A DNA stretch of 64,000 nucleotides from Tachypleus tridentatus (Eukaryota > Arthropoda > Merostomata > Xiphosura > Limulidae), in assembly GCF_004210375.1 (NCBI RefSeq), contig NC_134831.1, positions 1,674,001-1,738,000 on the forward strand, given 5' to 3'. Each line of letters opens with the position of its first letter. Position 1 is the first letter of the stretch. Of this stretch, positions 20,968 to 51,087 are shown one piece after another. Below the pieces are notes generated by a model. The model searched no databases, was not told the origin of the DNA, and saw nothing but the letters and a program-made list of their open reading frames with translations. The translations under genes and the position numbers were made by a program.

Positions 20968-21071
20968 ATGGCTTGTCTCAGACTCTGGAATCTTTTTCTG
21001 AGGGTGATTGCTTTCAGTGTATTTTGTGCGTGCGTTTGTGGGGCGACTGACGAATGTGATTGGATTGGAAG
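20968..21071 (+). CDS. metrn: Meteorin-family protein, coding exon 1 (signal peptide)
   Basis: First coding exon, residues 1-35 of a 285-residue secreted protein. The ATG follows TTTCCG, and an in-frame TAA lies 21 nt upstream at 20947, which fixes the start. Residues 8-26 form a hydrophobic signal peptide (core around LFLRVIAFSVF); cleavage is likely near Gly25/Ala26. The exon ends with the family signature DECDWIGS, matching the C-x-W-x-G-S-G start of mature vertebrate meteorins (recalled from memory). It ends in phase 2 (AG) before a GTAAAT donor at 21072; the T opening exon 2 completes Ser35. Meteorins are secreted neurotrophic and metabolic factors in vertebrates; the role in arthropods is not established here. 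The exon lies in a locally CpG-richer stretch, as expected for a promoter-proximal exon. It is too short to stand out as an open frame and was found through the splice phase and the motif. Confidence 0.87.
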
Positions 21072-24000
21072 GTAAATTAATATTTTCAGAAAACAGCATT
21101 AACTTTTATAACTAATCGTTCTTACTTTTAGTGTTAGAGTAAAACCTATTATGTTATATTAATACCATTGTAGTGGCAGTTACAGATTTGTCAAAATAAT
21201 AATAGATCGACTAGTATTAATAGTCAGTAGTAATAATAAATTTCAAAGTATTGTACGCTATTTAAACATAGTAAATTTAATGACACTTAGTACTAAAATT
21301 ACTAAATTTCTGTATATCGGTCTATGGAGTACAACTAGTTTACACGAAATCTGAATGTTTGTTGGTTTTTTTTGCAAGAAGAATTTGTGATTAGGCCTAA
21401 TATATGTATCACAGTTCTTTTGGACTGCAGTGGTGACTGTTCGGTAAACAGTAATTCATGGCTGTGTATAAATGTATTCTTTTATATATTAGGTTAATAA
21501 AACGTAGAAGAAAGGGAAAGCTAGTAATCTATTCTTTTATCAGTTATTTTCGAAGTAAAATTTGGAGTCTCGTGCAATGAAAAACTAGACTTATCAAACT
21601 CTCATTGAAGTACAGAGAATCCGGGGCGGTTTTAATAGAATCGGGGCAAAATGCGACGATTCCAGTGTTACTAAACCGTCTGGCTGAGATGTGGGCGCAA
21701 GCCATGTTAGACGAGTTTTGTTTGTTTTCAGAACGTATTTGATTTGAAACTTCTCTTGTGGTATTGGGTGACGTTGAAGTAAGAAAATTATGCCAAGTTT
21801 AGTGTCTTATTTACGTCGATCATCTACGTTGACGCTGACCTTAAGTCCAAGCTCGAAAACGTCAATATAGTAAACAAAGTGTCACATTTAGTAAGTGAAG
21901 CTGGGAAGGAAATCCATAATTCTTTCGTTGTACACCGCAACACTGAATGTACTCGTGAAGTTACACTTGTTAACTATTTCAGTTTATAACAACGTTAAAT
22001 ATTACTGATTATTTAATAAAAATTCTTTGTAAGAACGTAATTTAAATTACTTAACCTTGCTACTTCAATACCACAGTTATTTGTGAAAAATAAAACATAT
22101 GTACTTTGTTTTTTTTGCATTTTTTTAGACGAAATACACATAAAAGTAAAGAAACAAATGTAAAACTTAATTCGTAAGATAACATAGAAGAAGCTTAAAT
22201 GATTGTCATGTTACATTAGGAAGAAAGAGAAATTTTGAATTTTCTTTACGCATGTATACGAGGAGAGTACATGTTTTTAAAAGCGTAAGGTTTTCGCGCT
22301 TCTTGCATACCTTTAGTTTAAACTGCACACGACTAGTTATTTTAAGAAACATATTCTACGTCAATCGTAGAATAAGCGGACGTGTAAATATATATTAAAA
22401 TTCACAGAAATTTGAAGAGAGAATTTGGTTTCTAGAATTACAGGATAAGCGCGCTGTCTGCTGTAAATCTCTTCTCTGAGTACCATTTTATTTTACCAAT
22501 TACAAATTGCTCGTTTTACACATAACTGCTTGTAAGTCTGGCTAAATGTGCTTGGGAGTGATGTTATGGTGGTTTTAGTTATTCTAATGTAAATATGGCC
22601 TGTTTAAGTGTAGTAGTTAGTGTTCGTATAACAAGTCTAAAGACGTGTAGGGGTCACTTAGCCTAGAGCCATGTTCATGAATTCTTTTATAAAAATAAAA
22701 ATATCGATTTAAGTTTAAATCGTTTCTGAATTGAGCTATTTTTTGTTATATCACCAACGTTTTTAGTAGAATAAAGCTTTTTTATCAACGGAGACTAAAT
22801 TGAGAAAGTACCGAAAGTTTCATGTTTTGTTGTCCTTATACTTTGTTGTATACTTTAAGAACGTAGACCATCAACAATATTAGGTTATACCTTTGCCAAG
22901 CGACATGACATAAGCCATTGTTTGGGATGTAGTGTTACCAAAATGCACTGGCTGTCAATACATTAATATTGTTAATCTAATTGATTTTTAACGATAATTA
23001 TTCCATGAATACGTCACAAACTTGTTTCATGAATGGTCTTAATTTTTGTTGGCTTAGTAAAGAATTTACCAACGTATGACTGCCTTGAGTACACTTTTCT
23101 GGGTCTTTTGTTCGTCAAGCTTGACTTTGCAAAATTTATTTATTTCAATTAACCATGAAGTGAGAGGTGAGGGTATACTGTGGGGTGGGGAAGAAAGTAC
23201 TTTCTACGTCATTTCTGATGGGCTATACAGATAATTTTTGTGTGTAATCCTGACACGTCTATCACTCCAAATTTTTGTCAGAAGTACAGAAAAATCCAAC
23301 TTGCACTGATGAGAATGAATTAAGGTTTTAGTTGAAATAAATAATATACTTTTCAGTTAACCTTTACTGTAGTATGACTTAAATAGCCGTCATGTAGCGG
23401 TGCAACTTCATTAAGGTTTAGCGTACAAAATTATTTACTGTAGTAATGGACATCAACGTCATAAAGAATTAAGTGTATTTTATATCGTTTGTTTCTATTG
23501 CACATTTGTGTTGTAGCTTTACAAGACGATTATAGGAAGGGGCATAGAATGATTCACAGGAACAAGGTTATTATTTTTAACGTAATTACAACCATAGCTG
23601 GAAAGTGTGTGTGTGTAATTTCTTTTTTCTTTTTGCAATTACACATGCACAGAATGCATATGTAACATACAAGTCACAATACCTGTCACGTGCATGTTTC
23701 TGTAATTATGATAACATCATGTCTGTATACTGTAAACCATTTATATTGTTAATTACTCTTCCTTTCGTATTCTTTGTGTGTATTTTACATGACAGAGCAA
23801 AAAGATGTGAAACCAAAATATTAAGTTACACGCGTGTCTTTCAAACACTGCAAATTCCGGACTGTCACGTGCTTTACAAATGATTGGTTGTATCGGGATG
23901 TCAGTAACGCACGCCAAACTGTTGCTGTATTTGTCGTACTCGAATCGGATGTTGTAGGATCGCTTTGTCGTTTGATAACATTGTTTCGAGACTGCACAGG

Positions 24001-24785
24001 TTATTGGATTGTTCGTTGACGTAAATGCAACTATTTTAGGCCTAACATTGTTCTTTTAAACCTACAGAAAATTGGATGCGTCAGTATTTTACATCAAGTC
24101 AAAATATTTTTTTTTTTTTAAGAAAGGGAAAACAAACTAAAGTTTTAACCATTGTTACTCATTTCACCAATTAGTATCAGATTTGTTGTATTTTACGGTC
24201 CTCTGGACGTTTTCAGAGAAAAGTGTGTGGCAAACAAAAGTCCTGTAGTCGAGGTTTGCTTGTACGTCCTAACAGGACGTGTTTATTTCAACTGAATATA
24301 TGTTTAACGTGTGTAGTACAAAGGAAATAAGAGTTTCAAGTTTTCATGGCATTTCAGGTGTTGTTACTCAAATTGCCAGGAAGTATCAATTTAAAGAACA
24401 TGACAATGAACTTTTGTTGTAACACTGTCTGAATTATGAACAATGAAATTACATTTAAGACCATTTATTTAAACAACTTAATTTTTATCTAAATATTTAA
24501 TTTTGAAAACGAAAATTACGCCATCTACATTAAATCTTGAGATACTATAATAATCGTTATTTCTTCTGATAACATAAAACAGGTTTTGATGACATGCAAT
24601 CATTGAACATCCTACACTGAATTGATCAAGGCTGCTTTAGAAACAATCCAGCAACTTTTAACTTTGACGTTGTATTGTATTAATTGACATTGATTACAAA
24701 ACAGTTTTAACTGTGAATTGGATGCAAGGGCTAATAACTTGGTAACAAGGGAATTATTGTAATTGTAACTTCAAAATATATTTTT

Positions 24786-24915
24786 CTTGATGATGAGAAA
24801 CTCACTTGAAATACAAATGAATCTCAGAACGGCTGCTATGGGTAGTAATACTTTTATTGATAAAGTTTATCAATAGAAATGTGAATACGCATAGCAGCCG
24901 TTCTGAGATTCATTT
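24786..24915. mobile_element. Foldback fragment of a Penelope-like element
   Basis: Starts with the terminus motif TTGATGATGAGAAACTCACT, shared with 32183 and 56245. The 26-nt arms AAATGAATCTCAGAACGGCT-GCTATG (24815-24840) and its exact reverse complement (24890-24915) enclose a small palindrome, TTGATAAA-G-TTTATCAA (24857-24873). The ACGGCTGCTATGGG part matches the ACGGCTGGTATGGG end of the element at 32182. Confidence 0.6.
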
Positions 24916-25422
24916 TTACGTCAACAGATAGGTGACAGTAAAGTGAACAACTAAGCTTGTGGCATTACATGATATATGAGGAAACAATTTATTAACGACA
25001 GTAATGGTGAACAAACCTTTCATTTCAGATCGTGTGTTCTGACATATCTGGTCGTTCAAGATAATTTAGAAATTGAGTTTGGCAATTTACACTATGAACT
25101 ATAACTGGAACACTGACAGTTGAGCTGTTGCTGAATTTCTGACTGGGAACCTTTTGCAGAAATCTGATAATCTATACCATGAACAGATTCGTCTTGAGAA
25201 TTATTTATTTACATAATTATTAATACTTCTCACATTAGGGAGCGCCTTTTCCTTTAACTCTGTATTTGTAACAAAGTTACCACATTTAGTAATGCAAAAG
25301 TATTGTTGATTGATTGGAAAGTTTTCAACACTAACTTATAAGAAGAATTAAACTGTCTGCTTGTATATCACCGAAGTTAGTAAAAATAAACTGAAAATGA
25401 GCCATAAATTGACGTGTACGTC

Positions 25423-25541
25423 TTTTATTACGGTTTACAGCTTTTATGGTGAGATTACTTTTTAAAACAGGTACGTTGTAGTCACTGGTTCAATCATTAT
25501 TTTACTTAATCTTACTGTGAAAGCTGTAAACTGTAATAAAA
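25423..25541 (+). ncRNA. Candidate intronic hairpin RNA (35-bp stem)
   Basis: Bases 25423-25457 pair with 25507-25541 without a gap: 30 Watson-Crick pairs plus 5 G-U pairs on the + strand, around a 49-nt loop. On the - strand the five G-U positions would be A-C mismatches. It lies in meteorin intron 1 in the sense direction. It could be a microRNA-like precursor or a decayed foldback transposon; no known microRNA seed is claimed. Confidence 0.35.
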
Positions 25542-25953
25542 CACTATCAGTAAGTAAGCTCGAAGCGAAACTAACATGGACATAACTCGTTCAACGCGTA
25601 ACATTGTTGGTCTGACAAATATCGTGATGGTTTTGTCGTTCAGCGACGGTGTATAGGACTGATTATTCGTAACACGAAGACAAAAACTGAATTAAAAGCG
25701 AAAAAATAGTTTTTTTGTGATAAACTTGATGGAATTTTCGCTATTCATTTTAGTTGCCAGTATGGTTGGTGGTGACTGGTTAAATAGTGTGCGAGGAGTT
25801 AGCGCACGGACAAACAATTTCGCTTTTGTGTATATAGATGAGTAAGTGTGGATCTGTGAATTAACAGTTTAAAGAAATTACAAATAATGTGTACATTACA
25901 CACACAAAACTGCTATATGAATGTTGAGCTGTTAAAAAACCTACAGAAGGCAA

Positions 25954-26636
25954 AACTAACGACCGGATCGTATGATGTGTCTACTATAACTAACGACCGA
26001 CCGGATCGTATGATGTGTCTACTATAACTAACGACCGACCGGATCGTATGATGTGTCTACTATAACTAACGACCGACCGGATCGTATGATGTGTCTACTA
26101 TAACTAACGACCGACCGGATCGTATGATGTGTCTACTACAACTAACGACCGACCGGGTTGTATAATGTGTCTACTACAACTAACGACCGACCGGGTTGTA
26201 TAATGTGTCTACTACAACTAACGACCGACCGGGTTGTATAATGTGTCTACTACAACTAACGACCGACCGGGTTGTATAATGTGTCTACTACAACTAACGA
26301 CCGACCGGTTGTATAATGTGTCTACTACAACTAACGACCGACCGGGTTGTATAATGTGTCTACTACAACTAACGACCGACCGGGTTGTATAATGTGTCTA
26401 CTACAACTAACGACCGACCGGGTTGTATAATGTGTCTACTACAACTAACGACCGACCGGGTTGTATAATGTGTCTACTACAACTAACGACCGACCGGGTT
26501 GTATAATGTGTCTACTACAACTAACGACCGACCGGGTTGTATAATGTGTCTACTACAACTAACGACCGACCGGGTTGTATAATGTGTCTACTATAACTAA
26601 CGACCGACCGGGTTGTATAATGTGTCTACTACAACT
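25954..26636. repeat. 38-bp tandem array, about 18 copies in two blocks
   Basis: Unit AACTAACGACCGACCGGATC-GTATGATGTGTCTACTAT. The first five units carry GGATCGTATGATG; the rest carry GGGTTGTATAATG. The first unit lacks one GACC and another has lost one or two Gs. Confidence 0.96.
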
Positions 26637-27939
26637 TTTCATAGCTGTTTCTAGTGTTGTTGTATATTTGCTACCGATTATTTAGGGTTGATTAATTTTA
26701 ACACCACGACCAAAGTCGTCCATTTCAGTAGACGGTAATTAATGCAAGGTGTTCTAAAGGAGGAAAACGGCAGCTGTTGTTTTGATTTTTCGAAGAATGA
26801 ATGGATAAAACGGGGTGAGTTGATAAACAGACGGATATGAATTCGGTTTGTTTGTTAAATAGTCAATAATAAAAATAAAATATGTTACCAGTGATGACAT
26901 GACTTCATGTCAGAGACATTAAACTTTAAGCTCAGATGTATGTTATGAAATGTTTTAAAATGTTTCATGTAAAACAACAACAAAATATCGAAGACTTACG
27001 TTATGTCGTATTATTGTCATGTCCCTGCTCAGAGCCTGTGTTATGTAATGATTTAACTGGAAAACTCAAATATCCTGTCAGGTTTAAAAAAATTTAAAAC
27101 TTGGTAGTGGAGGGAAGACTGGGAATCTCGCCAGCATGTGCAGAGACAGTTGTTTACAGCTAATCTCCGAATTACATTTCGACTATAATGCGTAGGAACT
27201 GAACAGGTTTTCAAAATTGTCACATGTATATACTCTATATGCATACAAGTTTCGGTTAGATTTTTCTTTGAGAATCGAGTCACTAATGTTGTAGTTTCGA
27301 CACTATTATTAAGCTTTGGGACAGGTTTTAATCGGTTATTCAGTCACCGTAGGCTACAAGTTTTACAGAAGGTATATCTGTATTCAATTACGGAGATGTC
27401 CCCAATATGTTAATATACAATAGTTTTGGGGGATTTGAGTGTTGAATAAAATATTTTAGATTTGAACACTGATGTAAATTTCATAATGATAATAATGAGC
27501 CCTAATTAGAATTGTCGTCTGTTCATATACATCAGATACTAGATTCTAAAACAATTTTCTTCCAGGTGCAACAGGTTTTGTTGTTTTAATTTTATGTATA
27601 TGTTAGTTATGTTTAGTGTTTTTCTTTACTCATAGTTTTCCATTAATGTTTCCACATAACTGACTTTTGCCCAGGATTCAAATTATGATTGGAACTTTTT
27701 TAAATGTAACGTTGTCAAAAGCCCAACGAATTTGAGACAGGGAAGTTTTTTTGTTTATTTCGAGCTTAATCGGTAATCGAAAGTTGCTGGTTTTATCCCG
27801 TGGCTTCTGAAGCAACTCCAAAAGGGATTTTTTAAAAAGAGAATTATAAATATTTCTTGTCTTAACCTACCCTCTTCTAGTTCTTTTCTCTTGAGGTTTG
27901 AGGAAAACCTTAAATGTAATCTAGTGTCCTTGTAAGACA

Positions 27940-28320
27940 ACAGGCTCTACCAAAACGAAACCCTACCAATCTCTGCACGTGCATCCTCCATTATTTGAAG
28001 CCCCAGGTGTAGGGCAGGGCAGTTTACCTTTTGGTGGTCTCCCGCTGTCTCCATTCTGTGTCTTTCCCTCTTCCTTTCCTGACCCCCTTTCCCTGTCTTA
28101 TTTGCCCTGCTAACTTTTAGGTGTGTTTTATCCGAGTCTTTCAGATGTTACATGTATACCTTGTAGCCTTTTCGGACCTCCCACATCAGAGATGTAAAAT
28201 TACATGTCCTACTGTTTACGATTTCCAACTGGTTTCTTTTTTACTTATTGTCTTGTAACACATTTTTGACTTCTTTTTTTTTAACCTTTAAGTTATACAT
28301 TCCTTACAAGTACACGGATC
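27940..28320. other. Pyrimidine-rich block, unidentified
   Basis: A stretch of C/T-rich sequence (for example 28060-28100) inside intron 1, unlike its AT-rich surroundings. It may be the end of an unrecognised retroelement; no reading frame supports this. Confidence 0.25.
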
Positions 28321-28834
28321 GTGTATATTTTTAAGATTATCCATTAATGTAAAAAAAAATCTGTTTTAATATTTGTACCATTTTAAGACATGCCTGTTAT
28401 CTAAAAATAAAAGGGGAAAATATACCTACAGTCGGCCTGATGCAACAGTAATGACGTAAGAAATCTTAGGTACTCTTCGGGTTCATTTGTTCACTTTACC
28501 TTGATAATGTCTTTCTTCTGCATTTGCTGTAGACCCTAAACCGGTTGTTGTCTTTCAAACGAGTTAATATTAACAACAGCAAGAGGACCCGGTTTAAAAC
28601 AAAACTTGAGAAACGAGACGTTTGAGGTTGGATCGGTTTAGTATTAATGTCTGTAAACTGAATAAAACTACTGGAAAACGTTCACTTTGTCAATGTATTA
28701 TGAAATTTACATCGTAAAAAAACTATATCCCTTACCTCCTAAATGTCATTGTGATATTGGCTTGTTATCTTACAATACCGCATTCGATGATCTGTCCTAG
28801 ATGTGAAAGAACCTGTTTCCACGTTCGTTATATA

Positions 28835-29160
28835 CTACGTTAAACTTGCACGTAAGCATGCACAGGGGTGGGGTTCGTTTTTATAATCTCTGCAATAGGG
28901 GCCGTCTTGTCGGAGATAAACGCGGAAAGTTTCTAATCTTTTGTGATCTTTGTAAAACTCCCGCGAACGAAGCAACCCACCCTGTATTGGCAGGTAAGGC
29001 CACGGAAATTCGTGATTAGGGGTTACGAAGGTTATAATTACAGCGTTATGATGTGGTGTCTGTAGCCTTTCGACCACTGGCCACCCCGTTATGGTATTTA
29101 GGGCGCTGTAGCCATTGTGAGTGCTATGTCCAAAGCTTCTTTGATTCTTCATCGGGCTAT
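28835..29160. other. CpG-richer block in intron 1
   Basis: Locally GC-rich and CpG-rich, and open on the minus strand over 105 codons. I recognise no domain and no splice-bounded exon. An enhancer or an unknown repeat are both possible. Confidence 0.25.
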
Positions 29161-29993
29161 GTCGTATAAAACGTCTTTGTGTGTTGTAATAACCAGATGG
29201 TATCAGTTTTAATGCAACAGGACCTAATAGGAGTAGACTACAAAATTTCTTGGTACTTAAAGTGCGTTCCCTTTGAAAAGCACTTTAGGGAGGTTGAGCA
29301 CGTGTCTAGCAGGGGGAAATGCTGCTATGTTTTCCTGAATTTGTAGGTATTTGTTTAAAAGCTACGATGGTTTTTAGATGTTAGATAAAGATGTTTTGAA
29401 ACCTTTTTATTTCATTATATTTTGCTTAATTGTTATCAGTATCTATAAGAATTTTATGGATCCTATGTGTAACAGGAAGTTGTACAGTCTACTTGGACAC
29501 AATACGTAATATGTAGAATTTCTGGAATATAGAAATATAAATGCACAGTTTACCGGAGATAATACAGGTTTATAGGTTGTTTTGTATGCCAGGCTTGTAA
29601 ATTTACATTTAGATGTATATCACAGTTGAAGTTTCGTGATGGACCGTTAGTTATTCCATAAACAACTTGATTCTTTATAGACTTGTTTACAAGTGGGCTC
29701 ATGTCAGGGTTTTCCCACTAGCTAAATCTTTGTTATTAGTCACGTGCTCATTCACGTGACAACAAACAATGCACAGTGCTTTCCAACAGTATTCACTCTT
29801 GCCAGTGATGTCGCATTTTGAGGAAATAATAATAATAATAATAACAATTGTATTTGTTTTTATTCAACACTGATGAACAAACTGAATACTGTTATGGGTG
29901 AAGGAGGTTGTATACAATAACTACTTAATGGTTATTTAAGAACAGAAATCTTAATCATTATAATAAAGCTAGGCCTCAACATATAGTTGTTCT

Positions 29994-30034
29994 ATCTAGC
30001 CTTCGTGTACCTTTGCGCGAAATTCAAAAACAAA
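29994..30034 (+). mobile_element. SINE-A 3' tail fragment
   Basis: Only the last part, TAGCCTTCGTGTACCTTTGC-GCGAAATTCAAAAACAAA, is present. Confidence 0.75.
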
Positions 30035-30564
30035 TTTTCATGGAAGACTGGAAAAACAGTTATAATTATTTTTGCAATTTTCAGTGAACCGCGAGTGCGT
30101 TTTGTTGGATATTGTTGTGTATACGTGTTTTTTATATAAATGAAACTGTAAAACACCAGCTTTTGTTTCATTTTGTAATTAAAGAATCATTTTTAAACTT
30201 CCGTTTCTAATAAATGTGAACAATTTATTATTTTATGTATAATAAAGTAGTATAATATTATAGTTTCGTACTTGTTACTGTTTGGAACAGCTTATAGCAT
30301 TAACTTTCTGCTCTTTACGTGTTTTGGACATGAAGAAAACTAAGCAATTAGGAAGCAGTTTGTTGGCCCATAGTTATGTTTCCCATCAGCTAACCCATCA
30401 ACTTTACGACCTGTATTATAGTTAGTGAGATTACTTGTGTCATAAAAGGAAGGAAATGGTGGCGCTGGTGTATCGAAGCCGTTAACTTAAAAGCTTGTCG
30501 AAAAAAGGTGGCTTTTATTATTCCGATTTAAATAGTATGTGTACTGTTCAAGCAAGTTGACATA

Positions 30565-30780
30565 GGTTTGTTTTGAATTTCGCGCAAAGTTACACAAGGG
30601 CTAGCTTCCCCTAATTTAGCAGAGTAAGACCAGAGGGAAGGCAGCTAGTCATTACCACCCACCGCCGACTCTTTGGCTACTCTTTTACCAACGAATAGTA
30701 GGATTGATTGTAACTTCGTAACGCCCCCACGGCTGAAAGGGTGAGCATATTTTGTGTGACAGGGATCTGAACTCTCGGAT
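30565..30780 (-). mobile_element. SINE-A copy, reverse, head replaced by tandem repeat
   Basis: Body is clear in reverse, but the tRNA head stops within the B box region, where the 61-bp tandem begins. Confidence 0.85.
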
Positions 30781-30936
30781 AGTTGGCATAGGGTTTATAG
30801 ATCTCCGCTGACCTGTGTGACAGGGATCTGAACCCTCGGATAGTTGGAATAGGGTTTATATATCTCCGCTGACCTGTGTGACAGGGATCTGAACCCTCGG
30901 ATAGTTGGAATAGGGTTTATATATCTCCGCTGACCT
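30754..30936. repeat. 61-bp tandem, 3 copies, seeded by SINE sequence
   Basis: Unit begins GTGTGACAGGGATCTGAACT, which is the SINE-A head in reverse, and continues GGGTTTATAGATCTCCGCTG-ACCT. Units 2 and 3 are nearly identical; unit 1 differs at a few bases. Confidence 0.92.
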
Positions 30937-32167
30937 AAAGGATCGACCGTTTATTTGCTATTTTTCATCTCCTATCCATTTATTAATCTTACCAAGTTTC
31001 GAGCTTTTTTCAAATTATTCACAATTTAACCAGCTCCATAAATTACAAACCTTTACTGTTTAGCCGCACATCACCTCTTATCCACGAGCGGGTTAAGGGA
31101 AGATTGTTTTCCTTGATGATTAATTATTTATTCTCACTTGATTATTTTTACACGAAAACAACTGTCAGAGAAAAAGTGCCTACTTTTGTTTAGTATATAA
31201 ACAGACCAGTACTTTACTAGTGAGAGAGGCAGAGATGTTGACATTATTTTATTATAAAAAGGTTGAGATTGATGTATAATCATACTCAGTTTTTTTTAAG
31301 CCTAGAATTTTTTTCATCATGTTCTAATAGTTACTACCATACCTTATTAACTTTTTATAAATTTATAAAAGATGGATAATAGCATAGTCTGGATTAGTTT
31401 GCAGATAAAGTAACAATGTTATCGGACGGGTATGGGTATCTTCATCCAATGAGTAAATAAAGGTTCTTGGTTGGATGCACGCTATGACCGCTCGGGATTG
31501 AGAAGCTAAATTTGTTTTTTTCCCCAATGAGTTAAGTTATTTTAAACAATTTTCATCAGTGAATAAAAATAACAATTTGTTATTGTTCTATAGTATTAAT
31601 TTTTATTAGGAATGCGATATTTCTAGGTTATCTTCGAGGTTGCGTGAGATAATGGTCTGCATAGTTTGGAGGTATCTGACAAGAAATTATTTAGCGCCTT
31701 TATTGTAGCTGTAATTTCGTCGGTAATAGAACACTGGAAAAAACCGTGTAGTGCTGTGACAATATTTTTTTCGAACGCCTTTTACTAGTGGAGAACTTGC
31801 GGACGTTGGGTAATGACTTTATTGGTGGTATAAAGCTGAATAGCTGCAATTGAATTACTTTGACAAATAAATCGATTTACAGGTGGAGCCCTGAAGGCGC
31901 CACTCAAGAGTAAGTCGTGATACGAGTCCAACCACTATAAACAAAAGGATGGCACCTTCAGCGTTAGACCTACCACAATTGTCTGCTCCCGCAGGGCTCC
32001 GATTTGTGTGCCATAAACATAATGCCGCCTCTGTGTTTTTGGGAGACCTGTATGGGTTGCTTTCAAGCTAACGTAAAGCTAATGTATTATAATATCTAAT
32101 ACTTTTTGTTTTTATAATGATAGTTTATATTTGAATCTGTTAACTTTGACGCTAACTAGTTAGCTTT

Positions 32168-32181
32168 AAAATTTATAAATC
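32168..32181. repeat. Candidate left target-site duplication of the Penelope pair
   Basis: AAAATTTATAAATC here and AAAATTTACAAATC at 35012-35025 match at 13 of 14 bases and flank the whole inverted pair. Confidence 0.45.
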
Positions 32182-35011: not shown

Positions 35012-35025
35012 AAAATTTACAAATC
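35012..35025. repeat. Candidate right target-site duplication of the Penelope pair
   Basis: Partner of 32168-32181, in direct orientation. The AT-rich composition lowers the weight of the match. Confidence 0.45.
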
Positions 35026-37935: not shown

Positions 37936-38038
37936 GGAATAGGGGAAATTCTTTAGATTTAGAACGCTAGAATCAGGGGTTTGATTCCCCTCAATGGACA
38001 CAGCAGATAGCCCAATGTGGCTTCGCTATTAAAAAATA
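37936..38038 (+). mobile_element. SINE-C copy, diverged
   Basis: AGAACGCTAGAATCAGGGGT, then TTGATTCCCCTCAATGGACA and AGCCCAATGTGGCTTCGCTA. About 210 bp after meteorin exon 2. Confidence 0.75.
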
Positions 38039-39369: not shown

Positions 39370-39465
39370 GCCCCCGGCCTGACCACGTTAAAATCAGAGT
39401 TTTAATTCCTTGTGAATGAAACAGCAATTAGTCTAATGCGGCTCTGGTCTAAAAGAAGCACTTTA
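39370..39465 (+). mobile_element. Degraded SINE-C-like fragment
   Basis: CCCCGGCCTGACCACG head, GTTTTAATTCCTTGTGAATG and TAGTCTAATGCGGCTCTGG keep the family order at low similarity. Confidence 0.4.
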
Positions 39466-39694
39466 AATGATTTACAAAGTTGATAAACTTCTTTAGTTTC
39501 GTGGAAGAGAAGTGTACTTGAAACCGGACGACTGGTATTTTGAGATTGGTCCCAAAACAAAATTTCTAAGAACTGATACCAGTTCGAATGTAATCATTCA
39601 TATGTTGTTTTCATGTTTTCACAAATTAATACTCAGCTTGATAACGTGTCCTTGTAAAGGTATTTCCAGGTCTGCTAAAAAAAACATGTTAATA

Positions 39695-39821
39695 ATGCCC
39701 CCTTCACTCTGTCTACGGATTTGCAACGCTAGAAGCAGTTTCGATACTCATGGTGGGCAGAGCACAGATAGCCTATTGTGTAGCTTTGTGATTAATTCTA
39801 AAGAAACGAACGAACAAACAG
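39695..39821 (+). mobile_element. SINE-D copy
   Basis: TCTACGGATTTGCAACGCTA, then TTTCGATACTCATGGTGGGC, AGAGCACAGATAGCC and TATTGTGTAGCTTTGTG. Confidence 0.78.
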
Positions 39822-42191
39822 TTGCACATTTATTTTAATATCGATGTTAAATATATAAATGTTACATCCTACTGTATTGCGAGATTCCCGCCTCTATATT
39901 TTACTTCAAACAAACATATTGGTAACGCACCCATAACTGACCATGCGGTCGGGCAACTGACAAGAAACAGTTTGTGGAGTTTGATGTCAGGGAGTCCATT
40001 TTTATTTTACCCATTGTTACTTTTTCAAAATCAGATCGCACTCATTGTTAAGCACGTGTTCTAAGATTATCTAACAGGGGCGCTGCAATTATTGGTCTTT
40101 TATTATGGATGACTTTAATTTAAACTTAAGTAAAACGTACATAATCATTTTTTGTCAGTAATACTATTTCTTCCAGTAGTCATCGCCCAGTTCGTATTCC
40201 TGCTTTAGTATTAACAATTTTAATCGACAGGGTTGTTTTACAAATTACCTCTTTCACTAATTATCTCTTAAAGTTGATGTTAGAGGACTCCTACGTGTTT
40301 TGTTATGGTGACATAGTTCAGATGCCAACAGAAATGACTACGTGAAGAGAAAGTTAGCTAGATGCTTGCAATTCTAAAAAAAAACCTGTACGAGTGAAAG
40401 TAAACAAGAGTGTATAGCTAGCTATGTTAATCACTATAACCAACGATACCTTTGAATAAATATCATGACCCGCTATGCTGGTTAAGGTACGACAAACATA
40501 GTATTAGTTGATAAACTGTTCATATTACCAAATTACACGAACAAACATCATCATGGCAATGTTTAATTTTTACCACTTTTTTATCTACGCATAATTAGGG
40601 TTACGGATTGAGGATTAATATTAAACTCATTATTTTATTTTTAATTACCATTCAGAAAGCTGGCTAACCAGCAAAAACTAGGCAGTCTTGTTTGTTCGAT
40701 CGGGTCAAGTAACTCCAGCGTTCATAACTGTAACCAATAACGTTATTGGATAGTTATGTTTTCATTTTTTGATATTTTCTGTAATTGCAATATTTCCGCT
40801 TGCAAAAGTTATGTTAAAAATTGTAAGTGCGTTGAGTTTCGATCGTGTGAACAGTGGGTGAGGACTGTAATTTAATTTTGTTGATATTTAATTACATGTT
40901 GATCTAAAAAAAACAAAGCGCCATCATTGTCGGTCTGCCTAAACCTAGTTGTGATCCGTTTTTGCAAAGGTCATCAAATGTACCCCACTCGCAGATACAG
41001 CCGGAGGAATAAATTTAATTCGCCATCGGCCATGTTTAGGGTTGCAAAAAATGTGGCTAAAGATAAAGCGTGTATTCCTATCTGTCGTGTTATGTTCTGT
41101 AAACAGTTATGTCTTCGCTCTACCTTATATACAGTCGTAAGCCATATTTTCAGGGTTTTGATTTAGTTGTTTGCTACAGGGAGCTACAAACATGATGATG
41201 TTGATGATGACAAAAATTTATAAAAAAGGTAACAGAATATCCAGAATGTTCGTGAATGTTAATGATTGAGAGGTTTTGCGAAATCTGGAAACGGTGATCA
41301 CTTATAAATACAAGAATAATGACGTATTGAGATAGTTCAGTTCGTTCATTGATTGAGAAGTTAGTTAAGTGTTCACAACAGTACTGGTTATTGTGCATAT
41401 TTAGTTACCCTCTCAATTAGCCATAATATTGTACAAGTGAGTTTATTTCAATATTAGTAGCAGTACAGTTAATGAGTCAGTTTCTGTTGATAGTGAGTGA
41501 AAACACTAACTTGGGCCTCTAACTGCGTACAACTGATAGGAACCTGTAGCAAATGTTAAGAAAAAATCATTTGTTATCGTTATCTAGACTGAACTTCAAA
41601 TTATTTTCACCTAATAGAGGTGTTATAACAATAGGATTCTCGTAATTCGTAAAGTGTTTTAAAAAGTAAGTTGTAGTATTGATTTCAGAAGTACCATACC
41701 ATCAGATTTGAGAAATGTGTTACAACATACATTACCACTGAATGTCAACTGTAGTGTATAAACTAGCCACCAGTGGAAGGTGGTCTTCAAAAAACCTGTA
41801 ACTAATCGTTATAAAAATCTAATTTATTAACCTTATTAAACTTATATTCATTGTAAAGTAGGAAGGCTCATAAATTGTACATTTTGAGTTAGAATTGTTA
41901 TATCGACCTCGAAAAACAAGGTAGATGCTAACTGTAGACTTGCTTGATGTAGGTGCGCACTTGGGCTTTTGTAAAGTTACTACTGGACTGGTTACTCAGT
42001 TGTTCAAAGTTAGGGACGGCGGCAGTTTTAGTAGTTTTACCATAAATATAAGACAGAAATAATAATTTTATTTCTGGTGTGTCTCAGAAATGTTCATATT
42101 AAATATGTGAAGTAACAAGTTTAAAAATCGTTTTTATCTTTATTGAGAGCTAAATTACATAAAAAAAATCGTTACAGAAATTAAGTTATCA

Positions 42192-42201
42192 CAGATGGCG
42201 C
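42192..42201 (+). promoter_or_regulatory. CTCF-like motif CAGATGGCGC
   Basis: Exact YAGATGGCGC followed by TGTCAG, in meteorin intron 2. Confidence 0.35.
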
Positions 42202-43200
42202 TGTCAGACCTTGCTCGAAATACGAGTACTGATGAGCGTGCGAGTGATTGTTATCGCAACGATGCCCCTAAAATACGAAACTGGGAGTCTTCCTTTCTGT
42301 CACTCTTGTATGACTCATAAGGTGCAGTGAAAGGATTATTAAATTAACTCAAGCAACTGTTCATCATATAAAGCCGACTTTTCTAAGGTATTGTGGTAAA
42401 ATTAATATATTTCAACTTTCAGACTTTTAATGAAATTATCTACTTGCGTAACTGGGCAACCCCGGCGTCCCTTGATGTTCACACTCGAACACTGATGGAT
42501 AGTTTTACAGACCAGAAACAATCGACGTGACAGGGTTGTCTTCGTACCCGCGTTGTGCTTGGATAAACACGGTTACTTGTTAGCGGTGCACGATGCATGT
42601 TGGATGTTCTGGGAAATGCAGTGCTTGGTGGATTACAAAAGAAATGTAATATAGTCTACAGAATGTAATATTTTTACTCTATAGCTACTTTTCTTTGTTA
42701 ATGAACTCGCACATGCATGAAATGTCGTTTATTATGGACTCTCATTTTAATCGAATTTTGTATTTTTTTCTTCTTCTGCACGTGCAAAACTATAAAGTGT
42801 CGTTGATTTAAATTTTGCAATTTTCTAGGTATACACCCACGATTGTATATTTTAACCAAATACAGGAGCCTGTGCCTATTGGCTATTTTGTATGTGTGTG
42901 TGTGTGTTAGCGTTAGTAATTTAGCTGTCACGTTTTTGACGTTGTGGCTTGATGTGTCACGTAATATGTGATCGCTTTTGTTGGCGTGTGTTCGTTATTC
43001 CTAGCAGCAGATAGATAACTTGATTGTTGTCTTGTGTAGTGTTTGTGCGTGCGTGAAGAGTTTTAAACGTCAGGGTCACTACAACAACCGTGTATCATCT
43101 CTATTTAAACGGATGAATGTAAGGTTGAGAAAAACTGTTCTTTTGAGGCATTAGGGGAAATGCTTGGAAACGTTTTGAGGTTTCTAGAACTATTTTAAGG

Positions 43201-43366
43201 CAGTGGTTCCTAACTTGTGGGTCGCGATGAGTTTATTACAATTAGGCTTACTTTTGTTATAGATTTAAACGATTTGGTACTTGTCTTGTGAATTCATTGG
43301 TTGCTACCTGGGTGGCGATTAAATGTTTCAAAATGGTGTCACGTAGGGAAAGTTCGAGAAGCATTG
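43201..43366. mobile_element. hAT-like short element (MITE)
   Basis: Begins CAGTGGTTCCTAACTTGTGG and ends GTTCGAGAAGCATTG; the ends are imperfect inverted repeats (CAGTGGTTC against CAATGCTTC). The GTGGGTCGCG segment is typical of hAT short elements. The 8-bp flanks are only partly alike. Confidence 0.55.
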
Positions 43367-45014
43367 TTAAAGGACAATTGGATATTATAACGTTGTGTTA
43401 CATTCTAATTGCTCAGTCACGTCAATGCCACCTGACTTTATGAGCTAATTTATATTTTAACCGTTTTAAAAGTACTACTTACAGCACACATTGAGCCACA
43501 AATAAATAATAGAAGCCGTGTAAACTTCCGGTTAAAATTATCAAAATGAAAAGTCGTGCCACCAATATTAATCCGTTACTGTGCAGTACAAGTTAATCAA
43601 AATTTGGCAGATTATTTCCAATTATAAACACAGGCATGATTGTGTTAAAACAAAATCTAAAAATGTGTGTAAAAATGTCAACAAATAAAAAAAAAAAAAA
43701 TGTTTCGATTGCACGATCAGTTTTTCTTTATAAGACAATCTCGAGGTGTGTGATCAAAAGTGGGAATTTTGACTTGCATTACTGATATTTGGGAAGGTAA
43801 CTCCCATTCGTTTATCTACTCTCATACCTGTCCATTACTCTGATTATCTCAAAATTAGTTAAGGAAGCGTTGTAATGTGTTTTAAAATCAGTGTAGAGCT
43901 AAATAGAAATAAGTTACCTTGTTTTAACAATAAAATAAATTGATGGAAAACTAAAACTAAAATTTCACACTGAGTAACTAAGAAACAAAATTTTATGTTT
44001 TATTTCTGATGAATCGATTTGTAGGTATTATTAGCAGAAAACGTTCCTCATAATGGATACGATCTTGAGAAATTATAGGGGGAGCTAAGATCTAAAACTG
44101 GGGTACATATACTTAATGTTTATTTATAGGTTAAATAACTAAATTCAGATATCTAATTCGTAAAAGTTAACATTTACGAATTATTTTAATTCAAAATTTG
44201 TAATAACCAATTTTTATATAGAAATTAGATTTTTGTTATCGGATTATCTAAAAACTTGCAATAAGATAGCAGGTTCGTACCAACATTTTCAAAGTTTATT
44301 TATGTATTACTGAAATTAGATTTAGGCGAATTTTAATTCAATTTTGAAATGTGTGCACTTGTGTCTTTGGCCTAAAGCCACGATTCTAGTCAGCTTGTGA
44401 ACGTTACGCAGAAGTAAATTATTCAGAAAAGCTCAAAAGATTCGTAGTTGTTTGAAGATAAACTAACTTCAAAGTATGAGTGTGATTTTTACGATATTCT
44501 GTACCAAGTATATCTCTTGAATGATTACTTATAGGTTTGGAATCCATTACTTTCAGCCATTGTATTTGAGAAAAATGTAGGCCTGCAGGTGAAACGTCAA
44601 AGTACGATAATTGGATGCTGTGTACCAGACTAAGTAGTGTCAATACTTCGAAATATGTATTTATGTTTAGGAGCGTACTATTGTATTTCATTTTTATTAA
44701 CGTTGTTATTTTTTTTGTGAAAAAGTTTCTCCACTGCTAACAGACTCATTATATAAAACTTTCCATTTTACTAGTATTTCACCAAATTCTGCCTCCATAA
44801 ACATAAAAAAATAAGCAACTAATTCTGAAGCTTGACTCAACATGGCCTTTTCAGGGTCGTCTGATACAGGAGTATTACGGCATTCTAAACAATTTAGTAA
44901 CTGACAGAGACGAGAATCATTATGATAAACCGGAATTACTAATACCCTAGTGATAGGTTGCTAGTTGACTTACTGGTTGGAGAGCAAGGCTTACATTAGA
45001 AAGCTTTAAATATA

Positions 45015-45253
45015 CAGGGTGGCTCGTAAGTCCCTACCCATCAATATGTTATTATGTTATATTCAGTAATATTAATGAAGAGTTGAAGGCAGCTGTTACC
45101 ACGGCATTTGGAACAATAACCCCTGCTATGTTGAGGAAAATGTTTCAAAGAACATGGCGTCGCATAATATTATGCAGCAAGAATGAGGGACAGCACACAG
45201 ATACACTGGATACGTAAGATATATGGATGGGTAGGGACTTACGGGCCACCCTG
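45015..45253 (+). mobile_element. Mariner-family remnant with TA duplication
   Basis: Bounded by CAGGGTGGCTCGTAAGTCCC at the left and the inverted GGGACTTACGGGCCACCCTG at the right, each next to TA. The 239-bp interior translates to ELKAAVTTAFGTITPAMLRK and QRTWRRIILCSKNEGQHTDT, the C-terminal end of a mariner-type transposase; the catalytic part is deleted. Ends 45 bp before meteorin exon 3. Confidence 0.88.
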
Positions 45254-45298
45254 TACACTATTTATATTGTAATAAATGTTTTTTTTTTCGTTTTTCAG

Positions 45299-45355
45299 TT
45301 TGTCGTCCTTGTTCGGAAGAAGAAATGCTAAGGTTTTTCTGCGTGAGTGATTTTG
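45299..45355 (+). CDS. metrn: Meteorin-family protein, coding exon 3 (CRPC micro-exon)
   Basis: A 57-nt exon between TTTTTCAG and a GTGAGTAAG donor. Joined in phase it encodes V-CRPCSEEEMLRFFCVSDF-V, residues 164-183. This matches the CRPCSDxExLLAxCTSDF motif of METRN/METRNL (recalled). It contributes Cys165, Cys168 and Cys178, which in vertebrates take part in the disulfide network linking the two halves of the protein. Both borders are phase 1, so skipping the exon would keep the reading frame. A mariner-family element ends 45 bp before the exon, leaving a very short stretch for the branch point and T-rich tract. Confidence 0.94.
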
Positions 45356-46320
45356 GTGAGTAAGGGCATCTGTACGTTTATAATTGATAATAAAGATAAA
45401 ATTTAGTAATATTAACGGCACTTAGATTACGTGTTCCCGTTTTTTTCTGGTTAAGTAAGCTTTGAGAAATGTATATTGCATTAAAAAAAAAGGTGTACTG
45501 TGTGACGTTACTATAGTTGTAGGCCTATCTGTGGTGTCTGGGCCTCGTTTCTGAAGAAGTTTTTATTTGAACCATATATTTTCTCTTATACCTACTTTAT
45601 TAAATTATATACCAGCATAACTTTTGGTTCTATTTAAAATAGTTTCTGATAAAAAGTTAGTGTTAAGTAGATATTAAATTTGATACAATTTACCCAAGTT
45701 TTTAATATGAATGCTAGTTTTCAGTTACAAGTTTGTTTTTGAAGTAACTTACTCCGTGAATAATGTATATTTTAACTGTATTTTCGAAAGAAATAACTCT
45801 AAAGTCCACAACAAAGAATTTCTTTAAGCCAGTGATGATGGTAATAATCGCCACTTAAGCCTTCTTTGGGTACACCAGTGATATCGATAGGAAGGGTAGA
45901 GTAGGCTAAGCGATAAATAGCCTTCAGCAAGTCTGTGTCACTTAATTTCTGTACCTTTCTTATACACTCAATCTTTCACACCTATCTTTGTGGACTCTTA
46001 GAATGCCTGGAAAAAGGATTAGCTCGTTGTTCGTGCAGCTTTGACTTACACGGACCTGCTGACCAAGAACATGAAGGGCTTGACCGTTGTTCACATTTAA
46101 AAGCAAAGAATGACTTGTTGATTTTGGCAGCCTGTCGGGTTTTAAGTCAATCTCCAGTTAAGATGCATACGTACGTATGTCTGTAGAAGCTTTTGAATCC
46201 AACCTCACTTCTAACCCTTTAGTACTCAGTTAAGATGCTTTGGCCTAAATCACTAAGTGAAAGACGCAGGTGTCTTTGACTGAAATAATCCACCGGTTTC
46301 ATTCATCAGTTCCTCTAAAC

Positions 46321-46330
46321 GCGCCCCCTG
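46321..46330 (-). promoter_or_regulatory. CTCF-like motif CAGGGGGCGC
   Basis: GCGCCCCCTG on the + strand; reverse reading CAACAGGGGGCGCG matches the G-rich CTCF core. In meteorin intron 3. Confidence 0.35.
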
Positions 46331-46664
46331 TTGTGAAAGGGTAAAAGTATTCAACTTAAGCTTAACTCTTAACATTTTACATTGGTCTTTCTCGGATCAC
46401 AACTGACTTAGCTAACCGCATTTTGTCTGGCCACATTATGTTATAGTCAACTCTGTTCCATCAAGTCTAAATGATATTCTTTAGACTGTAGCATGCATGC
46501 ATGGTGTAAGCGAGACTAAAATATTCAGTGATTAATAAAATAAAAAAAAAGCTTACAAAATTTGAATAAAACAGGTAGAACTTTCTACCACCCACTTTGT
46601 AATAAGTTAGACCAAATACATATATGTTCTGTTGATAGGACAGCAAACAGAATTTGATACGCTA

Positions 46665-47082
46665 GGTTAGTTGGTTGGTTTGGCGTTTTATGGCGCAAAG
46701 CAACAAGACTATCTGCGCCAAACATCCGGTAGAAAGTTAAAATTAAAATACGTTAGGTGACGTTTGACTGGTACAACAGATGTATGTACTTATTTGTAGC
46801 AAAATTAAAATCGTTTAACTTTAAAAATTGGAGAACTTTGAATAAAAAGCTTTTAAAAGGTAAACTTGATGTGAAACAAAATGGCAAAAGAAATAAAACT
46901 CAACAGTACTCTCTTGACGTTGTAGACTAGATGTAAACATTGGTTTTATGCTATTTATGTTTTTTTAAAACTGTTTTATTTTACCTTAATTTTACTAAAT
47001 TTACTTTTAACTTTTTACCGGACGTTTGGCGCAAATAGCCTAGCTGCTTTGTGCCATAAAACACTAAATCAACCAACCAACC
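46665..47082. mobile_element. 418-bp non-autonomous element with about 85-bp inverted ends
   Basis: The left end GGTTAGTTGGTTGGTTTGGC continues TTTTATGGCGCAAAGCAA and GCGCCAAACATCCGGTA. The right end is its imperfect reverse complement (TACCGGACGTTTGGCGCAAA to AACCAACCAACC). The AT-rich centre has no coding capacity. Superfamily not assigned. Confidence 0.75.
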
Positions 47083-47474
47083 TCATCACTACTGCCGGAC
47101 TTCAGAAAATGATTTTTTACGACATATCGAATTATTGGACTTTTTCTGTGATAACTGCACATGGTCAATTCTGAACGTTCCACTTTCTTTTTTCAGCATT
47201 TTTCGGCTGAAAGTTTCATAATGGGACATGTGCACATGACCCGTCTCTTAATTTTAAGCTAACAAGTTAAATGTTATTAGTTACTTAACAACAACAACTT
47301 ATTCTCGGAATATATAGTGAGATTTTGCTGTCACTGTTTAGCGCAACCATTGTCTTAAGGTGCGGATAGGGTTTTTGCGAAGATGTCGTAAACCATAAAT
47401 CTTCGGTTTCACAACCGAGCCTGCTAATCATTAGATTTCGTATAGTCCAATAACACTCATCTAAGCATTAATTG

Positions 47475-47724
47475 GGTGCGGCACTAAACTCATAATCCGA
47501 GGATCGCGGGTTCGAATCCCCGTCACACCAAACATACTCGCCTTTTCAGTCGTGGAGACGTAATGTGACAGTAAATCCCACTATTTGTTGGTAAAAGAGT
47601 AGCCCAAGAGTTGGCGGTGGGAGGTGATGACTAGCTTCATTCCCTCTAGTCTTACACTGCTAAATTAGGGACGGCTAGCGCAGATAGCTCTCGTGTAGCT
47701 TTGCGCGAAATTCAAATCAAATCA
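47475..47724 (+). mobile_element. SINE-A copy
   Basis: Exact CGCGGGTTCGAATCCCCGTC arm and full body; the head is shortened at its 5' end. Confidence 0.92.
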
Positions 47725-48248
47725 AGCATTTAACAGTACATTTAATGTAAGGTTTTGATATTCTTATATTCATATCTTTGGAAAAATACACATAATAGGG
47801 TTGTTAGAAATCCCAGTTTTAAAATTTGTAATCGCAAAATGGCATGACATGATGTGTAATCTTGCGCTTTCAATAAAGAAAAATGTACAGTGGCAGGTTT
47901 GTGCCCCAAGGTCATGATTATCTGACTGCCGAAAACCTATTGTTCTCTTCTAGTGGTACCTACTTCGGACAAAAAAGAGACTTTTCAACCTTTTATTTAC
48001 GTCCTAGCTTAAGTCACGCCCACGTAGGTTGCCAGAATCAAGCTAGTAATTTCTGTAGTAGTACTTACTCTGTTCGGTGTTGACAACTGTGATTCTTTTC
48101 GTACATGGAAAAAGGTTGCGAGATTATGGTGGTGGGGGAGGGGGGGGGTAGTCTGCGAGTACATAACTTGTGTGATGTAACTGTCTATTTCGTTTAGAAT
48201 GTTCTGAATGTTTATTGCATTAACGTCAAAACGCCGTATTCATTATTC

Positions 48249-48513
48249 AGCTGGTTAATGTACTCGACTCGTAATCTGAGGGTCTCTGGTTTGAATCCCC
48301 GTCACACCAAACGTACTCGCCCTTTCAGCCGTGGGAGCATTATAAAATTACGGTCAATTCAACTATTCGTTGGTAAAAGAGTAGCCCAACAGTTGGCGGT
48401 GGGTGGTGATGATGACTAGCTGTCTTCCCTCTAGTTTTGCACTGTTAAATTAGGTACGGCTAGCGCAGATAGCCCTCGTGTAGCTTTGCGCGAAATTCTA
48501 AATAAACCAAACC
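48249..48513 (+). mobile_element. SINE-A copy
   Basis: Head begins at CAGCTGGTTAATGTACTCGA; body has one extra GAT in the GGTGATGATGAC run. Confidence 0.92.
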
Positions 48514-48712
48514 AGTTTGTGAGCCCGCTTTTGGTTGTTAAGCGCTGAGTAATAAAACTAATTTAATATGTTGTAAAATAAAATATTAACCGTAGCCGCA
48601 CTAGTCTTGAGTGAGGTTCGTGATGTCAGCTTATTTATAGTATTTTATGTAAACTGAATTTGTTTGACTTGTTTTTGTTACTCGTCACAGTTTGATTTGT
48701 TCCTTTACTGGT

Positions 48713-48990
48713 GCCCGGCATGGCCAAGTGCGTAAGGCGTGCGACTCGTAATCCGAGGGTCGCGGGTTCGCGCCAGCGTCGCGGTAAACATGCTCGCCCT
48801 CCCAGCCGTGGGGGCGTATAATGCTACGGTCAATCCCACTATTCGTTGGTAAAAGAGTAGCCCAAGAGTTGGCGGTGGGTGGTGATGACTAGTTGCCTTC
48901 CCTCTAGTCTTACACTGCTAAATTAGCGACGGCTAGCACAGATAGCCCTCCTAGTAGCTTTGTGCGAAATTCCAAAAAACAAACAAACAA
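48713..48990 (+). mobile_element. SINE-A copy, full length with 12-bp target-site duplication
   Basis: Flanked by exact TCCTTTACTGGT at 48701-48712 and 48991-49002. From GCCCGGCATGGCC to the AACAAACAAACAA tail it spans 278 bp and gives the best definition of the element's ends. It lies 97 bp before meteorin exon 4. Confidence 0.96.
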
Positions 48991-49087
48991 TCCTTTACTG
49001 GTTGTGTTGAGAAGATTCATAACGTAACATTCCGTAAATGAAACCAGAGTTATTTCATTTATATTTCTTTCACTCTTTTGCTTTTAG

Positions 49088-49398
49088 TTTTGCAAGGCAC
49101 AGTTAGTTCTCTGAACCACAACAGGCGCCTCCAGCGGTCAGAGCTGACAGTTCAAGTGAAAAGAATTTATCGAGATAGTCACGAGTCAGTTTTGAATTCT
49201 GTCCCAGACGACCGCAAAGAAACTGTTCTTCATAGATCCCTGAAGTGCGATACTAAAGTTGGACCTGGGGAATATGTGTTTTTTGGCAAGTGGACACTGG
49301 AAAGCCCGGTTATTCAGTGCGCCCCTCGATTAGCGGATTGGAGAAAGATTAGAAGAAAAGCAATAATGGAAGGAACTAACCAGTGCCATCTGGATTAG
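49088..49398 (+). CDS. metrn: Meteorin-family protein, coding exon 4 (C-terminal domain, stop)
   Basis: Final coding exon, residues 183-285, with a TAG stop at 49396-49398. The acceptor is CTTTTAG after a T/C-rich tract. It begins VLQGTVSSL, aligned with the (V/A)xxGxIxxV segment after CTSDF in vertebrate proteins, and holds the netrin-like C-terminal half. The LKCDTKVGPGEYVFFGKW block matches the family L-x-C-G-V-x-P-G-x-G-x-[FL]-F-x-G. QCAPRLADWRKI matches GCAPRF-x-x-[FL]-x-x. NQCHLD matches the terminal P-C-E-V. Cysteines at 236, 260 and 282 are the last three of the conserved ten. Total coding length is 858 nt, close to the human proteins (about 290-310 residues). I cannot say whether it is closer to METRN or METRNL. 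Confidence 0.95.

Positions 49399-51052: not shown

Positions 51053-51053
<1 letters not shown>

Positions 51054-51087
<34 letters not shown>

Follow-up and report, generated by a model that had tools for sequence, protein, structure and literature searches.

The vertebrate meteorin METRNL is described as a protein with CUB and NTR domains that binds receptors (PMC11756984) and as the product of a gene with four exons (PMC12110803), and KIT and HTR2B are named as vertebrate meteorin receptors in PMC12316458. The same paper proposes a chordate origin of meteorins; passages in a review and in an eLife paper of 2025 describe them as confined to vertebrates or chordates. A claim that the family is poorly described outside vertebrates, made in an earlier note on the DNA studied here, is a fair one, yet wasp, other insect and spider meteorins are in print. 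Nv-meteorin of Nasonia vitripennis was reported as expressed in the embryo, along with meteorin in most other insects (PMC4968023), and these arthropod family members (PMC4968023, PMC7372847), which we liken to our gene by their descriptions, have been in print since 2016. Among chelicerates, LOC107455759 of the spider Parasteatoda tepidariorum is annotated as meteorin-like and is reported to share two embryonic expression groups with Pt-hh (PMC12159194); here the likeness is one of annotation.

We analyzed a window of 64,000 nucleotides from the horseshoe crab Tachypleus tridentatus and confirmed that it contains a predicted complete four-exon meteorin-family gene, here called copy a. It resembles METRNL in its number of exons. 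An arthropod meteorin as such is already in print (wasp, spider); copy a is a new member, and the expansion of the family in this genome is the interesting part.

Gene model and family membership of copy a

Joining of the exons (104, 386, 57 and 311 nt, in sum 858 nt; Table 1) gives a protein of 285 amino acids followed by a TAG stop. This is exactly the 286 codons including the stop counted in the earlier note, whose exon boundaries, phases and upstream stop were reproduced to the base. All introns are GT-AG, and the cumulative phases after the four exons are 2/1/1/0; the donors read GTAAAT, GTAAGT and GTGAGT, and the AG acceptors are preceded by T-rich tracts. Exons 1 and 3 are indeed so short that a search by frame length could overlook them, but there is nothing unusual in this. 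The hydrophobic leader, recognized by hydropathy only, has a 12-residue mean of 2.75 at residues 13-24. Other AATAAA or variant hexamers 3' of the gene also occur between 49571 and 50294.

Table 1. Features of copy a, with positions in the window.
Feature	Position	Strand	Basis
Upstream in-frame TAA, first before the start codon	20947..20949	+	Reading of the exon 1 frame
Exon 1, coding part: start codon, hydrophobic leader, mature start TDECDWIG, donor GTAAAT	20968..21071	+	Block C-x-W-x-G aligns with 7tl6
Intron 1, 16.3 kb, phase 2	21072..37340	+	Splice sites
Exon 2: N-terminal (CUB-type) domain and hinge	37341..37726	+	7tl6 alignment; copy d alignment
Intron 2, phase 1	37727..45298	+	Splice sites
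Exon 3, 57 nt, phase 1/1, CRPCSEEEMLRFFCVSDF, 3/6 NTR cysteines	45299..45355	+	57-nt exon 3 in copies b and e; boundaries as in copy d
Intron 3, phase 1	45356..49087	+	Splice sites
Exon 4: remainder of NTR-type domain, stop TAG	49088..49398	+	7tlh and 7tlw alignments
Two AATAAA hexamers, possible polyadenylation signals, ~490 nt past the stop	49887..49899 (at 49887 and 49894)	+	Consensus only

The joined protein matched solved meteorin domains in the PDB, from entries named Meteorin and Meteorin-like (7tlh, E 5.9e-18; 7tlw, 1.4e-17; 7tl6, 1e-11), while its reversed sequence gave 0 matches at E 1. Both domains of vertebrate METRN/METRNL are matched in the same order, with 31-40% identity in the aligned stretches: 36 of 91 aligned residues are identical to 7tl6 in the N-terminal (CUB-type) domain (residues 27-119), and 37/121 (7tlh) and 41/120 (7tlw) in the C-terminal (NTR-type) domain (residues 164-284). 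Each of the 4 + 6 cysteines in the 7tl6 and 7tlh stretches has a cysteine of copy a opposite it in the alignment. These comparisons support the proposed membership of copy a in the meteorin family (METRN/METRNL). Its second domain scores much the same against METRN as against METRNL (68.3 and 67.0 bits), as expected if copy a predates their split. The N-terminal domain of paralogue b matched a PDB meteorin as well (E 5.6e-12). Unlike the vertebrate proteins, copy a has an odd eleventh mature cysteine, C43, and no N-glycosylation sequon, whereas paralogue b has two sequons. Regarding the motif blocks given for the family in the earlier note, C-x-W-x-G does align with 7tl6, but the supposed CTSDF reads CVSDF in copy a. 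A Pfam scan of the copy a protein returned 0 families, AlphaFold single-sequence models reached a pLDDT of 45 for exon 4 alone and 33 for exon 2 alone, too low to be of use, and a pattern search with the exon-4 protein gave 6 matches in viral_contigs and 54 in genome_contigs, with no relative confirmed.

A chance origin of this gene model is excluded by three lines of evidence. The homology to solved meteorins crosses junctions 1 and 3, with a null result for the reversed protein. Equally long open stretches are rare in the window: among random single-frame stretches from positions 1-20000 and 50001-64000, 4/20,000 of 384 nt and 28/20,000 of 306 nt were open. Finally, in paralogue b, located on another contig, the three junctions fall at the same alignment columns and in the same phases.

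It is improbable that the gene is real and its exon model incomplete, with a different first exon or a further in-frame exon lying between exons 2 and 3. The latter is possible since junction 2, which lies between the domains, is crossed by no homology alignment. Against an incomplete model, the CxWxG block directly before junction 1 aligns with meteorin, all three junctions of paralogue b agree with those of copy a in column and phase, and copy e yields a 292-aa protein of the same plan. Copies b and e were modelled with copy a as the guide and so are not fully independent support.

The window has 172 reading frames of >=60 aa; Pfam searches with 20 of them gave one match over the cut-off, a reverse transcriptase, and four sub-threshold matches (DUF3605, ELM1, a Tc3-type helix-turn-helix and DUF5844). 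Intron 1 of copy a contains a reverse-transcriptase element as an inverted pair and a 38-bp tandem array. Comparison of window frames with C9 at 30.33-30.43 Mb returned the meteorin exons and the reverse-transcriptase element, along with numerous short matches, presumably repeats. Rfam families and tRNAs in the window numbered 0 each, and SINE strings of the window had 0 occurrences in paper texts, viral_contigs and genome_contigs.

Paralogous copies in the genome

A genome search detected 18 meteorin exon matches. Besides copy a, these lie on the minus strand of C7, on both strands of C9 at 30.26-30.39 Mb and again at 101.23-101.29 Mb, and on C13. Copies b and e are two further complete genes that share the exon plan of copy a. 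Exons 2 and 4 were read for copy c and exons 2-4 for copy d, and in each case the exons were grouped into one gene by strand, order and spacing. Exons 2 and 4 are thus both present in five copies; the sixth, copy f, has exons 3 and 4. The 57-nt exon 3 of copy a recurs in b, d and e. All ten conserved cysteines are present in the three fully read copies a, b and e, while C43 was found in copy a and is absent from b, c, d and e; copy c has one additional cysteine in exon 4. The horseshoe crab thus has at least five or six paralogues, copy a included.

Could copy a itself be decaying, with its extra cysteine and missing sequon, and its role be carried by paralogues? Decay does happen in the meteorin family of this genome: the C13 relatives are decayed fragments with in-frame stops, and no exon 2 of copy f was found in the 40 kb searched. 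The frame of copy a, however, is open and its splice sites are intact, and dN/dS between a and d is 0.13 over 230 codons, so that we give decay of copy a only a slim chance. Pairwise dN/dS among a, b, c and d is 0.13-0.21 with dS near saturation (for a and b, dS 1.37, dN 0.277 and dN/dS ~0.20). Purifying selection on copies a-d is shown by these codon comparisons, as estimated from sequence.

The earlier note regarded copy a as the single chelicerate orthologue of METRN/METRNL. The chelicerate part stands, the genome being that of a horseshoe crab with coagulogen exons (best E 1.5e-25; controls 0/14). Within the window there is indeed one copy only, tblastn of the window giving no second at E < 1, but the matches on C7, C9 and C13 and the completeness of b and e lead us to reject a single orthologue for the horseshoe-crab genome. 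Just as untenable is the view that there is effectively one gene, its other copies being haplotypes left uncollapsed or duplicates produced in the assembly: they occupy distinct positions on C7 (196 Mb), C9 (169 Mb) and C13 (276 Mb), differ by 16-41% in exon 2 proteins and 33-56% in exon 4 proteins, and are separated by dS of 0.94 (b-c) up to beyond saturation.

The paralogues are arranged as three pairs of neighbours in divergent orientation, c/a on C7 and d/b and f/e on C9, possibly with intervening genes. Copy a is nearest to d (76%, 97/128 identical, in exon 2; 67% in exon 4), and the two are sisters in the tree (98.4/98). Copies b and c, grouped with moderate support (86/79), are probably sisters too. 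The tree supports an origin of the pairs c/a and d/b by duplication of one ancestral pair. Copy e is unplaced (19.2/51), and copy f groups, with weak support (69.9/66) and long branches, with the PDB meteorins. A search for minus-strand coding exon-1 ends (C-x-W-x-G followed by a GT donor) found none in 21 kb before a, 25 kb before b or 38 kb before e. This disfavours a close-spaced bidirectional promoter with start sites within ~1 kb, which is not supported for the meteorin pairs in a search that covered coding exon-1 ends only.

Predicted role and significance

Very probably, copy a is a functional four-exon horseshoe-crab gene that encodes a putatively secreted, disulfide-rich meteorin-family ligand, one of several duplicated paralogues and a predicted extracellular signal. 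The protein would consist of a leader peptide, an N-terminal CUB-type domain from exon 2, a hinge, and an NTR-type domain from exons 3-4. If secreted, it may act on a receptor at the cell surface, with a part in embryonic patterning or tissue signalling, and the copies may share out this role. Such a role would fit the domains and receptor binding described for METRNL, the vertebrate receptors KIT and HTR2B, and the embryonic expression reported for the wasp and spider genes. Whole-genome duplications could be the source of the meteorin duplications.

A more far-reaching proposal, which we offer as a doubtful one, is that horseshoe crabs kept an ancient divergent meteorin pair and multiplied it via genome duplications, with roles shared among the copies, and that the C7 pair gained odd cysteines with which it could form disulfide-linked homo- or heterodimers. 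Vertebrate meteorins are not known to form such dimers. Under this proposal meteorin signalling would be ancestrally bilaterian, contrary to the chordate origin put forward in PMC12316458.

The occurrence in a chelicerate of at least five meteorin genes under selection, with both domains and all ten cysteines present in copies a, b and e, puts the family in the protostome-deuterostome ancestor unless it was transferred. The several horseshoe-crab meteorins may also serve as a system for comparing copies.

Structure and family of the gene in the window

The meteorin-family gene of the window (gene a) was read as four coding exons, and every number that the earlier note gave for this model was reproduced to the base. 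The introns have GT donors and AG acceptors in phases 2, 1 and 1, the joined exons form an 858-nt frame that encodes 285 residues and closes with a stop codon, and the nearest stop upstream in the same frame is a TAA at 20947. In the rest of the window, one random frame was open over 384 nt in 4 of 20,000 cases and over 306 nt in 28 of 20,000. Since exon 3 is 57 nt long with phase 1/1, skipping it would preserve the frame while losing three of the six cysteines of the NTR domain. The domain names CUB and NTR are taken from a description of METRNL in PMC11756984.

Comparison of the protein with PDB by phmmer supports the proposed membership in the meteorin family. Residues 164-284 match Meteorin 7tlh (E 5.9e-18; 37 of 121 aligned residues identical) and Meteorin-like 7tlw (E 1.4e-17; 41 of 120), and residues 27-119 match Meteorin 7tl6 (E 1e-11; 36 of 91). 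All four cysteines of the 7tl6 stretch and all six of the 7tlh stretch align with cysteines of gene a; C43 is one further cysteine in the mature protein, which begins after about residue 26 and has no N-glycosylation sequon. The reversed protein had no PDB match at E 1. Two weak extra rows, 7koe (E 0.015) and 2d1h (E 0.69), were taken as chance. A Pfam scan of the protein returned no family, and single-sequence structure models of the domains were of too low quality for use. Bit scores of the second domain to METRN and METRNL are nearly equal, which would fit a lineage older than the METRN/METRNL split, as judged from bit scores only and not from a tree.

Meteorin copies in the Tachypleus tridentatus genome

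The genome (2,167,478,450 bases in 205 contigs), in which the window occupies C7:1674001-1738000, was searched with the gene a protein. Scoring of 19 candidates (E up to 10) yielded at least 18 exon matches; the two weakest (E 0.86 and 2.25) were counted solely as exon 3 of copies b and e, where they lie in the expected position. These matches resolve into gene a, copies b to f and fragments on contig C13, which refutes the suggestion that gene a is a single orthologue.

Coordinates of meteorin exons and fragments (gene a in window coordinates, the others on contigs C7, C9 and C13)
Feature	Location	Strand	Basis
Gene a, coding exons 1-4	20968-21071, 37341-37726, 45299-45355, 49088-49398	plus	window reading
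Copy b, exons 1-4	C9:30352979-30353109, 30365574-30365962, 30378051-30378107, 30387206-30387534	plus	exons read
Copy c, exons 2, 4 (exons 1, 3 unread)	C7: about 1614656-1615045, about 1584368-1584733	minus	exons read
Copy d, exons 2-4 (exon 1 unread)	C9: near 30278036-30278431, near 30262805, near 30260098-30260412	minus	exons read
Copy e, exons 1-4	C9: from 101267346; 101276065-101276450; 101284739-101284795; 101287213-101287529	plus	exons read
Copy f, exons 3, 4	C9: near 101234408-101234461; near 101228695-101229024	minus	genome search
L026, exon-4-like fragment	C13:61676331-61676636	minus	in-frame stops
L027, exon-4-like fragment	C13:61713895-61714053	minus	in-frame stops

Copy b encodes 301 aa, with phases as in gene a and an in-frame stop upstream, and copy e encodes 292 aa. 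Splice sites are intact at all four exons of b, exons 2 and 4 of c, exons 2-4 of d and e, exon 4 of f and the donor of exon 1 of e. A TGA counted for exon 4 of c sits ahead of the acceptor within the match and not in the exon, and one counted for exon 2 of e is likewise not part of the exon, which translates without a stop. No exon 2 of copy f was found across the 40 kb searched (101229201-101269200). The two fragments L026 and L027 are much alike and lie about 38 kb apart on the same strand; this part of C13 is perhaps a fourth meteorin region that has lost its function.

Purifying selection on the copies is clear: NG86 estimates of dN/dS from exons 2 and 4 (230-237 codons) lie at 0.13-0.21 between any two of a, b, c and d, and at 0.13-0.33 for pairs with e and f where dS is defined (f with a shortened exon 4). 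These ratios are rough because synonymous sites are near saturation: over the whole frame a and b differ by dN 0.277 and dS 1.37, and a-e and d-f are saturated in dS. Gene a alone has an extra cysteine in exon 2, with four where each of b to e has three, and exon 4 of c also has one extra.

The copies form three divergent pairs, c/a, d/b and f/e, each made up of adjacent meteorin copies on opposite strands. They are spaced by about 80 kb (upper end of c exon 2 to the start of a), about 75 kb (d exon 2 to the start of b) and about 33 kb (f exon 3 to the start of e). Closely spaced starts within these pairs are unlikely: a pattern search limited to coding first exons covered 21 kb ahead of a, 25 kb ahead of b and 38 kb ahead of e, and none of these stretches showed the end of such an exon on the minus strand. 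In a tree of exons 2 and 4, without an outgroup giving a reliable root, a and d are sisters (support 98.4/98; 97/97 for exon 4 alone and 91.9/93 for exon 2 alone), the grouping of b with c is moderately supported (86/79) and e has no firm place (19.2/51). Copy f joins the two PDB meteorins weakly and on long branches (69.9/66), a grouping taken for long-branch attraction. This branching, with c and a paired on C7 and d and b paired on C9, is the pattern that duplication of one ancestral divergent pair would give, one of the resulting pairs now being in reverse orientation. Horseshoe crabs went through whole-genome duplications, and we infer such an event as the source of these two pairs. No gene besides meteorin was seen to be shared between the window and 100 kb of C9, the many short matches there being taken collectively for repeats.

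Genomic surroundings and chelicerate source

Intron 1 of gene a contains element arms in inverted orientation (32211-35017; 79-98% complementary in 10 pieces) with a reverse-transcriptase frame between them (33861-34445, PF00078, E 2.1e-7); we take this element to be Penelope-like with a GIY-YIG-like part. A tRNA-like SINE occurs at 17 places between 573 and 57823, counting the query copy at 48151-48480, with 76-86% identity to the query. It is presumably one known from horseshoe crabs, and was not traced in any collection searched. Tandem arrays were observed at 4099-6616 (37-bp, 68 copies), 7480-7822 (49-bp), 16796-17529 (36-bp) and 25960-26636 (38-bp), and GC skew is -0.314 in block 4001-8000. 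A possible remnant of a Tc1/mariner-type transposase lies at 8385-9081; PF01498 matches 8385-8600 below the cut-off (E 0.017), and the remainder is a putative part of it.

The Coagulin family PF02035, the clotting protein of horseshoe crabs, matches 19 places in the genome (best E 1.5e-25) and none in the 14 control genomes. One coagulogen exon is nearly identical across 51 residues (E 6.6e-30) to the solved coagulogen 1aoc, presumably from Tachypleus tridentatus itself. Horseshoe crabs being chelicerates, these matches bear out the chelicerate source proposed in the earlier note. The Coagulin-family exons are clustered at C7:19.2-20.6 Mb, C7:29.07 Mb, C11:9.02 Mb, where a coagulogen gene lies, and C11:42.93-42.96 Mb; the repeated matches on C7 and C11 suggest that a coagulogen-like family may be multi-copy.

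Possible role and significance

Gene a is predicted to encode a secreted ligand with two domains. Of the vertebrate family members, METRNL binds KIT and Metrn is reported as a ligand of HTR2B, and zebrafish work suggests other receptors in early development (PMC12316458). In the wasp embryo, meteorin expression marks a circle in the ventral anterior region, which may correspond to the anterior midgut primordium (PMC4968023), and a spider meteorin-like gene shares two expression groups with Pt-hh (PMC12159194). By analogy with this embryonic expression and these receptor reports, gene a could act in embryonic patterning or tissue signalling via a putative receptor.

According to PMC12316458, metrn/metrnl are not found in invertebrates, orthologues are present in amphioxus and tunicates, and the left-right function of meteorin is proposed to have arisen during chordate evolution. 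Among the openly licensed papers listed for invertebrate, arthropod, insect and chelicerate meteorins, none was recognised as dealing with a meteorin of a horseshoe crab. Gene a by itself is an ordinary member of its family; the meteorin family in the horseshoe crab is larger than the vertebrate literature would suggest, and hence worth attention.
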